From: an uncultured Lachnospiraceae bacterium
Lineage (GTDB): Bacteria > Bacillota > Clostridia > Lachnospirales > Lachnospiraceae
DNA length: 64,000 nt
Assembly: GCA_947243855.1 (NCBI GenBank)
Contig: CAMXIK010000014.1
Location: forward strand, 1-64,000
Direction: 5' to 3'
The translations under genes were made by a program, and so were the position numbers. The notes under the pieces are model-generated. The model saw nothing but the letters and a program-made list of their open reading frames with translations, was not told where the DNA came from and did not search any database. Of the stretch, positions 24,130 to 48,605 are shown piece after piece; within the stretch, counting starts at the first letter, position 1, and every line of letters begins with the position of its first letter.

Positions 24130-24193
24130 GATGTACTCCTTTCTGGCTCTGGCCATGTCTGTCAGTCACCTTTGACTCCGCTGTAGACTACAT

Positions 24194-24387: not shown

Positions 24388-24660
24388 CTTGACAGATTCT
24401 CTTAAAATCTGTCAAGGACGAATGATACAATCCGCGGTGCCACCTTGATTCACGAAAACTTCGTGCGCTTAACAGGATACCAACATATCCCCGGCCTCTG
24501 ACGCGGGCCTTACGTTGCAGAATACTCTGCGCTTTCGCGCATTTGACTGCACCCTCAGCGGTCCATTTGACGACTTGTTTCTTACCTGATTCTCAGCAGC
24601 ACAGGCTCTCTGTAAAGGCATCATCACCGTTATCTCCGCTTCAACGGTTTAACTCGTTAA
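24388..24660 (-). promoter_or_regulatory. Tryptophan T-box leader of the trp operon
   Basis: On the minus strand the T-box sequence AAGGTGGCACCGCGG is at 24432-24446, followed by a strong terminator: CCTTGACAGATT pairs with AATCTGTCAAGG (24388-24417) before a T-rich run. Upstream is a Stem I with AGAGAGCC and a specifier region where UGG (24563-24565) is followed by ACC and CTGAG, as in known specifier loops. UGG is the Trp codon, so uncharged tRNA-Trp should pair with the specifier and with the T-box bulge and allow read-through into trpE-A. This is clear from sequence pattern; folding was done by eye. Confidence 0.92.
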
Positions 24661-25274: not shown

Positions 25275-25362
25275 TTCTCCTTTTCCGCAGGAGAATCGCC
25301 TTGTTTTCGTTCAGTCCGTCTCCCGCTTTTGTATGTTTGTTGGATGCAAAAGCATAGATTTT
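25275..25362 (-). promoter_or_regulatory. Conserved structured 5' leader, copy A (before Uma2 gene)
   Basis: In transcript order: AAAATCTATGCTTTT (25348-25362), a 17-base loop, AAAAGC running into GCGGGAGA (25319-25330), a 25-base variable part, TCTCCTGC (25287-25294), GGA, then the ribosome-binding site AAGGAGAA (25275-25282). GCTTTT pairs with AAAAGC, and GCGGGAGA pairs with TCTCCTGC through 8 bp including one G-U. The same CTCC can instead pair with GGAG of the ribosome-binding site. The same ordered elements occur at 48338-48455. I know of no named RNA class with this plan. Confidence 0.6.
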
Positions 25363-25471
25363 CTGAACAGTTCTTAGAATCGTAAGATGCGTAAAATACG
25401 CTATGATATCAAAGAATATATGCTTTTCTGATATGTTATCATGCTTCCGTTAGGAAGTCAAGCTCCTAAAT

Positions 25472-48337: not shown

Positions 48338-48455
48338 TCCTCCTTGTCCGCAGGAGAAACTACCATGGATTAATTACCCCGGCCAGTCTAAGGCCGCGCC
48401 TTACAGAATCTCCCGCTTTTAAATTTGTCGTGTTTGATTTAAAAGCATAGATTTT
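48338..48455 (-). promoter_or_regulatory. Conserved structured 5' leader, copy B (before Rpn-type gene)
   Basis: Same order of elements as copy A: AAAATCTATGCTTTT (48441-48455), a 20-base loop, AAAAGC into GCGGGAGA (48409-48420), a 52-base variable part containing an extra GC-rich hairpin, TCTCCTGC (48350-48357), GGA, and ribosome-binding site AAGGAGGA (48338-48345). Paired strands are preserved, while the intervening sequence differs from copy A in length and content, which fits selection for the structure rather than recent duplication alone. Confidence 0.6.
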
Positions 48456-48605
48456 CCGAAGGTTAGAATGTTTGATATGACATACTGTTTTTATCTAGAA
48501 ATTGTTATGCTTTGAATTTATTATAGCGGACGTGTTTTGGTCTGTCAAGCCCCTCCTCACGAAAGAGGCATCTAAGAATCCAACTGGTTTTACGAATTGC
48601 CAACA

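Follow-up and report, generated by a model that had tools for sequence, protein, structure and literature searches.

Leaders and genes within the window

The window, by which we mean the entire 64,000-nucleotide stretch of an uncultured Lachnospiraceae genome that was analysed, contains a Uma2 gene and an Rpn-type gene, each preceded by a leader on the minus strand (Table 1). Both gene calls of the initial annotation proved right, as evidenced by the Pfam matches of the window proteins to Uma2 (PF05685, E 4e-36) and PDDEXK_2 (PF12784, E 3e-37). Its description of the two as unrelated PD-(D/E)XK genes held less well: Pfam puts one of them in PD-(D/E)XK, and Uma2, which is placed in the same superfamily, is hence not wholly unrelated to it.

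The four sequence blocks earlier reported to be shared by these leaders in a fixed order were all present in both. A comparison of the complete leaders revealed five common blocks in the same order: (1) AAAGCATA, (2) (TTCRG)AAAATC-TATGCTTT, (3) AAAAGCGGGAGA, (4) TCTCCTGC and (5) the Shine-Dalgarno sequence. The intervals originally assigned to the leaders, 25275–25362 and 48338–48455, enclose blocks 2–5 and so miss the 5' half of the element; both leaders start about 60 nt further upstream, at AAAGCAUA, leaving block 1 outside. Three of the four pairings described below had likewise been seen, whereas segment 1, and hence its pairing with segment 2, was missed. Block 1 is complementary to TATGCTTT of block 2.

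The pattern GCTTTT-N5..34-AAAAGCGGGAGA occurs exactly twice in the window, against a mean of 0.00 in 100 dinucleotide-preserving shuffles, and the two occurrences of ATCTATGCTTTT-N5..34-AAAAGCGGGAGA in the entire 3.58-Mb genome are both window leaders. Covariance-model matches span 25307–25426 (Uma2 leader) and 48399–48513 (Rpn leader), and the models identified two further copies in the same genome, at C4:72174–72286 and C19:70648–70770.

At both promoter-like sites of the window, the first base of block 1 is the seventh after the −10 hexamer, and the RNA start is predicted at block 1 because it lies just after such a site. Across the relatives, a −10-like hexamer was located 4–7 nt 5' of segment 1 in 157 of 166 leaders, compared with 58 of 166 for a control position within the leader. 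On the plus strand, a consensus scan returned no promoter-like site at the Uma2 leader and one weak site (9/12) at the Rpn leader; neither window leader has a terminator-like site on the sense strand. Among the pairs read from the sense strand, G.U exceeded A.C both in 3:4 (78 versus 12) and in 2:3 (73 versus 42), which points to a sense RNA.

The T-box model RF00230 gave no match over either leader. Its only match in the window (94 bits) is at 24411–24653 on the minus strand, upstream of a gene at 24156–22669 that adjoins the Uma2 gene and resembles anthranilate synthase by eye.

Table 1. Predicted features of the two leaders and their genes in the window
Feature	Position	Strand	Remarks
Uma2 leader, predicted promoter	25433..25461	-	TTGACT 25461-25456, 17-nt spacer, TAACAT 25438-25433; 9/12 consensus bases
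Uma2 leader, segment 1, AAAGCATA	25419..25426	-	predicted RNA 5' end
Uma2 leader, segment 2 + upstream arm, TTCAGAAAATC-TATGCTTT	25349..25367	-	partner is segment 1 or segment 3
Uma2 leader, segment 3 + outer arm, AAAAGCGGGAGA ... CTGAAC	25309..25330	-	2:3 and 3:4 tests
Uma2 leader, segment 4, TCTCCTGC	25287..25294	-	3:4 test
Uma2 leader, segment 5, Shine-Dalgarno AGGAG	25277..25281	-	pairs with segment 4 in minimum-energy fold
Uma2 gene, 191 aa	24695..25270	-	PF05685; matches PADLOC candidate defence model PDC-S03
Rpn leader, predicted promoter	48520..48548	-	TTGACA 48548-48543, 17-nt spacer, TATAAT 48525-48520; 12/12 consensus bases
Rpn leader, segment 1, AAAGCATA	48506..48513	-	
Rpn leader, segment 2 + upstream arm, TTCGGAAAATC-TATGCTTT	48442..48460	-	
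Rpn leader, segment 3 + outer arm, AAAAGCGGGAGATTCTGTAAGG	48399..48420	-	
Rpn leader, segment 4, TCTCCTGC	48350..48357	-	
Rpn leader, segment 5, Shine-Dalgarno AGGAGG	48339..48344	-	
Rpn-type PDDEXK_2 gene, 295 aa	47447..48334	-	PF12784

Distribution of the leader

Two covariance models were built, R1 from six leaders and R2 from 31. With R1, matches were obtained in 49 of 60 genus genomes (E<=1), with a maximum of 11 per genome. R2 matched 26 of 299 family genomes at E<=0.01 and, at E<=0.05, 52 of 397 family genomes and 47 of 334 genera, the latter counts including weak, unchecked matches of which a few look false and some, such as L241, are without segment 1. An order-level draw yielded matches in 3 of 146 genomes. 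The family is called Lachnospiraceae here since records so named carry very similar leaders. The single match outside the family (G045, L174) was dropped since it resembles coding sequence without segment 1, and so was L004 (Nitrosocosmicus), where the short pattern alone matches and the flank inspected has no segment 1. L085 was left out because it could not be parsed, L141–L143 and L246–L248 stand outside the model searches, and the hand lists omit near-duplicate or identical copies (such as L069, L172, L224 and L243–L245) as well as a cut-off second match at L050.

Judged by these sequence matches, the leaders are members of a large, Lachnospiraceae-wide RNA leader class, hereafter class A. 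The divergence of the leaders and the several sequence groups of genes behind them, together with the number of genera matched, rule out one recent duplication of the whole region as the source of their likeness. Rfam 15 gave no match above the gathering threshold at the window leaders or at 10 relatives' loci, and the matches at E<=10 all scored far below gathering, which fits the earlier remark that no named RNA class with this plan is known. Our literature searches returned no description of such a leader; a 2017 survey of 224 RNA candidates lies outside their scope, and a prior mention there is possible. In the main text of PMC11109978, PMC8632094, PMC6429828 and PMC2864571, as far as it was accessible to text searches, neither Uma2 nor Lachnospiraceae is mentioned.

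Genes downstream of the leaders

A search in the sense direction identified an ORF of at least 80 aa after the Shine-Dalgarno sequence in 158 of 185 distinct leaders; the other 27, with no readable ORF of that length, lie at contig ends or before decayed genes. By similarity of the first 190 residues, 149 of the 158 ORFs fell into four groups, comprising 94 KDTxFRMLF and YhgA-like Rpn relatives, 36 members including the window PDDEXK_2 protein, 14 Uma2 proteins and five members of a family with an EYK motif. The nine singles were classified by eye as two Rpn C-terminal pieces, one possible PD-(D/E)XK protein and six unrelated ORFs. Overall, 151 of 158 downstream ORFs are nuclease-type or pieces of nuclease-type genes, with products of roughly 180–340 aa. 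A covariance-model search of the kind that the initial annotation proposed has turned up numerous copies of the leader in front of Uma2 genes, Rpn genes and their relatives.

Of 133 non-redundant ORFs, 127 were scanned, and Pfam assigned 27 proteins to PDDEXK_2, 11 to Uma2 and five to Transposase_31. The NCBI Rpn model TIGR01784 matched 30 of the 127, and up to 21 of the 127 matched NCBIfam FliH, which we take for repetitive tails. The KDTxFR family has an invariant D..E-x-Q and was linked to the YhgA-like family by profile comparison (probability 90%); 10 of 17 of its members weakly matched Transposase_31 (best E 0.0014), and against the PDDEXK_2 group its C-terminal tails alone were aligned. 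The PD-(D/E)XK status of the EYK family rests on a motif seen by eye, since a profile comparison with the KDTxFR family found nothing. Profile searches against solved structures, which covered the families other than EYK, gave a confident match for Uma2 alone. Among the PADLOC candidate defence models, PDC-S03 matched the window Uma2 protein (E 3e-44) and none gave a good match to the window Rpn protein. Rpn proteins are reported to be toxic and anti-phage, and in E. coli the full-length Rpn is restrained by an internally encoded antitoxin (PMC10327210, in the excerpts available).

In this genome, 15 Uma2 or PDDEXK_2 genes were found, three of them with the class A leader by model. In L049, L054, L079, L125, L132 and L168 a deletion seems to have joined the leader to the middle or the end of the gene or to another gene, which at L168 is a glycerol-kinase match. 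Leader-gene units seem to decay often.

Co-variation along the segment chain

The consensus chain reads AAAGCAUA (segment 1), UAUGCUUU (segment 2), AAAGCRGGAGA (segment 3), UCUCCUGC (segment 4) and the Shine-Dalgarno sequence (segment 5), and the pairing set 1:2 + 3:4 excludes the set 2:3 + 4:5. Compensatory changes had been named in advance as a test of the pairings, and they are present. After thinning to sequences less than 75% alike, which is the only way in which the permutations account for relatedness, none of 5000 permutations was as good as the native partners for 2:3 (n=62) or for 3:4 (n=52), and 3 of 5000 were for 4:5 (n=52).

Among 88 distinct rows, 12 cells of 2:3 were changed on both sides (0/500 shuffles), in an alignment that is fitted to 2:3; the count of doubly changed pairs, two, was ordinary (138/500 shuffles). 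For 3:4, the native duplex averaged −13.9 kcal/mol, compared with −12.5 for permuted partners and −6.5 with shuffled downstream sequence (RNAduplex, n=154), and an earlier test with ungapped placement gave z=7.2 with mixed ranks among variant segments. Most variant segments 3 pair with their own leader less well than the consensus segment would (RNAduplex); hence the 3:4 signal resides in the mean value and in rewritten partners such as GCAGAAGG/CCUUCUGC and GCAUAGUGCA/UGCACUGUG. Segment 4 tracks segment 3 over a spacer of variable length. The co-changing partners lend firm support to 2:3 and 3:4 as predicted helices, and good support to 4:5.

Evidence for 1:2 is thin because segment 1 is nearly invariant; it was unrecognisable in 9 of 185 leaders. 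In the 88 distinct rows, three pairs were changed on both sides in 8 cells and 93.9% of cells were paired, with 0/500 shuffles as good and slid controls reaching at most 56%; the outermost pair was unpaired in 35 of 86 cells. After thinning, as many as 195 of 5000 permutations did as well as the native pairing in one set (n=62) and 173 of 5000 in another (n=39), and the inner extension alone gave z=−2.2. Specific swaps back the putative pairing: AAAGCAUA/UAUGCUUU is replaced by AAAGCAUU/AAUGCUUU in six distinct leaders, AGAGCAUU occurs with AAUGCUUU in one and AAAGCAA with UUGCUUU in another, while five distinct leaders carry one half only of the A/U swap.

Between leaders, the loop that 1:2 encloses differs greatly in both length and sequence. 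UUCU occurs in it at 1.95 per leader versus 1.07 in shuffles (n=62), of which the inner extension of 1:2 can explain one copy. Throughout this 5' domain (25368–25418 in the window, for example), UUCU and UCU(A/G) appear at about twice the shuffle frequency (n=62); inspection by eye also shows a recurring hairpin with RUCU after it. The UUCU/UCU(A/G) repeats are possibly a protein-binding pattern.

Predicted folding and proposed mechanism

Energy folding, a calculation that leaves out kinetics, proteins and ligands, was applied to leader prefixes of increasing length; the counts exclude leaders that lack a start codon, have long spacers or contain N. In prefixes ending at segment 2, 1:2 was present in 136 of 138 minimum-energy folds, versus 4 of 138 when the segment 1 letters were shuffled. 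With segment 3 included, 2:3 was present in 129 of 138. The minimum-energy folds of the full leaders contained 2:3 in 135 and 1:2 in one of 138 cases, and the Shine-Dalgarno sequence was mostly paired in 121; the computed default is hence off. The on fold is calculated to be much weaker than the off fold: by predicted energies, forced 2:3 lay below forced 1:2 + 3:4 in 126 of 127 leaders, with a mean gap of 9.5 kcal/mol.

From the co-variation and these folds we consider it probable that the five-segment leader is a translational relay switch, with two mutually exclusive pairing sets, placed mostly before nuclease-type genes. The switch-like logic proposed in the initial annotation is supported by the same co-variation and by the nuclease-type genes that the leaders precede. 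In the predicted off state, 2:3 and 4:5 would hide the ribosome-binding site, and in the on state 1:2 and 3:4 would expose it. As the RNA grows, 1:2 would form earliest and be displaced by 2:3 upon emergence of segment 3, after which segment 4 would shut on the Shine-Dalgarno sequence and leave the ground state off. A factor that holds 1:2, be it a ligand, a protein, an RNA chaperone or delayed refolding, may free segment 3, which would then capture segment 4 and allow translation to begin. The leader would presumably serve to withhold growth-inhibiting or anti-phage nucleases until the cell has use for them, and on the best reading it would guard toxic or defence nucleases and be off at equilibrium.

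A second leader class with the same chain

Other PDDEXK_2 genes of the same genome carry other leaders. One of these, class B, is located at C1:203946–204089 on the plus strand and, in intact units, precedes a PDDEXK_2-like gene (loci L264–L283 and L297–L305). DNA matches, some of them short, were found in 28 of 77 genus genomes, and model R3 matched 8 of 299 family genomes, with weak scores outside two genera. Its chain consists of AAGCAA (segment 1), CUCCUUGCUU (segment 2), GCAGGGAGG (segment 3), CCUCUCUGC (segment 4) and AGAGAGG (segment 5). The 5' domain is multi-stem, with double-sided changes in two of four stems; the closing stem 1:2 varies too little to tell. Of 10 loci inspected in other genera, seven have the chain, and a simple motif search put it as absent from three. 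Joint changes of segments 3, 4 and 5 occur within these seven, as in GCAGGGA / UUUCCUGC / GAAAGGAA of L298. This recurrence of one chain in a different spelling speaks more strongly than anything else for the chain itself being the function. Seven loci of leader classes other than A had no match in Rfam.

Alternative explanations

The leader may alternatively work as a timer that needs no trigger. Every new transcript would be on for a short time, with 1:2 and 3:4 formed, and then refold to off, giving a burst of translation per mRNA without any ligand. The order of folding in the prefixes and the deep off state agree with such a timer, and the variable loop enclosed by 1:2 argues against one tight ligand pocket. 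However, 2:3 is already formed in most prefix folds (129/138) once segment 3 is out, which would leave little time for 3:4, and the 5' domain shows some constraint, as evidenced by the UUCU enrichment (1.95 versus 1.07, n=62) and by the recurring hairpin and RUCU seen by eye; we therefore hold the timer to be possible but doubtful. A static hairpin that merely hides the Shine-Dalgarno sequence, the remaining complementarities being by-products, is consistent with computed folds dominated by 2:3 and 4:5. It is unlikely in view of the co-variation of 3:4, including its rewriting in L218 and L219, of segment 1, which is conserved where the transcript is predicted to begin although the domain between it and its partner varies, and which shows some compensatory changes, and of class B, which repeats the entire chain with other letters.

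The many copies, the adjoining genes annotated as putative transposases and the leaders fused to truncated genes might instead suggest a DNA-level element, that is, a mobile repeat, a recombination site or a regulator-binding palindrome. Such an element would not be expected to favour G.U over A.C, to have a segment 4 that follows segment 3 across a variable spacer, or to carry a −10-like hexamer before segment 1 in 157 of 166 cases. Behind 158 of 185 leaders, a search of the sense direction only found an ORF preceded by a Shine-Dalgarno sequence, 151 of the 158 being nuclease-type or pieces; within that search, the inconsistent orientation to neighbouring genes typical of a mobile repeat was not seen. 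We regard this explanation as very improbable. Attenuation through a leader peptide is the least plausible of the alternatives. It would draw on the AUG within segment 2 (AUGCUUU), which is present in 168 of 176 leaders, with two GUG, one UUG and one CUG among the other eight. That AUG has no Shine-Dalgarno consensus before it by eye, the frame it opens runs from two codons up (quartiles 7, 14 and 28) with no fixed stop, and its letters are already required by the pairing. The predicted relay switch is hence our preferred reading, and the leader is best placed as a new class within the switch-type leader RNAs, a known kind, and not as a proven riboswitch.

Relation to known systems

Translational riboswitches that sequester the Shine-Dalgarno sequence by means of a sequestor and an anti-sequestor are a known class. 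The leaders resemble them in their mutually exclusive sequestor and anti-sequestor, in a 5' domain upstream of the expression platform and in the lack of a terminator-like site in the window leaders; they differ in having a chain of five segments, the first of which lies where the transcript is predicted to begin, a loop domain of variable length, and nuclease-type instead of metabolic genes. Type I toxin mRNAs such as AapA3 (PMC6733600, in the part available) likewise have a hidden Shine-Dalgarno sequence, sequential co-transcriptional hairpins and a toxic product; here, in contrast, the early hairpin would be permissive and the product is nuclease-type. By analogy, these riboswitches and the toxin mRNAs with metastable hairpins described in the same source appear to be the closest working parallels. 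In T-box and trp-type attenuators, too, helices that exclude one another form a relay within the leader, whereas the present leaders have no T-box match, no fixed leader peptide and a translational platform. The mobile or repeat candidates of RNA-motif screens (PMC11109978, in the portion available) are similar in their many copies per genome near called transposases, but the leaders described here are promoter-adjacent, stand before start codons and have co-varying alternative helices that extend to the Shine-Dalgarno sequence. A five-strand hand-over is not described for any RNA class found in our searches.

If the reading is true, a widespread anaerobic family would possess a class of regulatory RNA that goes with nuclease-type proteins (Rpn, Uma2) instead of a metabolic pathway. 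Being off at equilibrium, such a leader would add a second, RNA-level lock to Rpn-type nucleases, and the silencing of such nucleases becomes directly testable by reporter fusions. More tentatively, class A, class B and possibly a class C may form a superfamily in Lachnospiraceae whose RNA relay switches respond to infection or stress and arm PD-(D/E)XK defence nucleases, the 5' domain sensing the signal, holding 1:2 and freeing the ribosome-binding site through 3:4.

Further leaders in the genome

Class C is found at C2:78577–78713, C10:72928–73015 and C32:25848–25943 (loci L284–L295) and in 6 of 77 genus genomes. In these leaders, UUGGAAAAUC ... GAUUUCC closes two hairpins (UGCC..GGGCA and GGAGCG..CGCUCC), and the genes that follow include two that match PF12784, one of them below the cut-off. 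On contig C8 (locus L251), a further Uma2 gene is preceded by another long leader that lies after a promoter-like site (GAAACGGAGTATTC ... CGCTTACTCACT).
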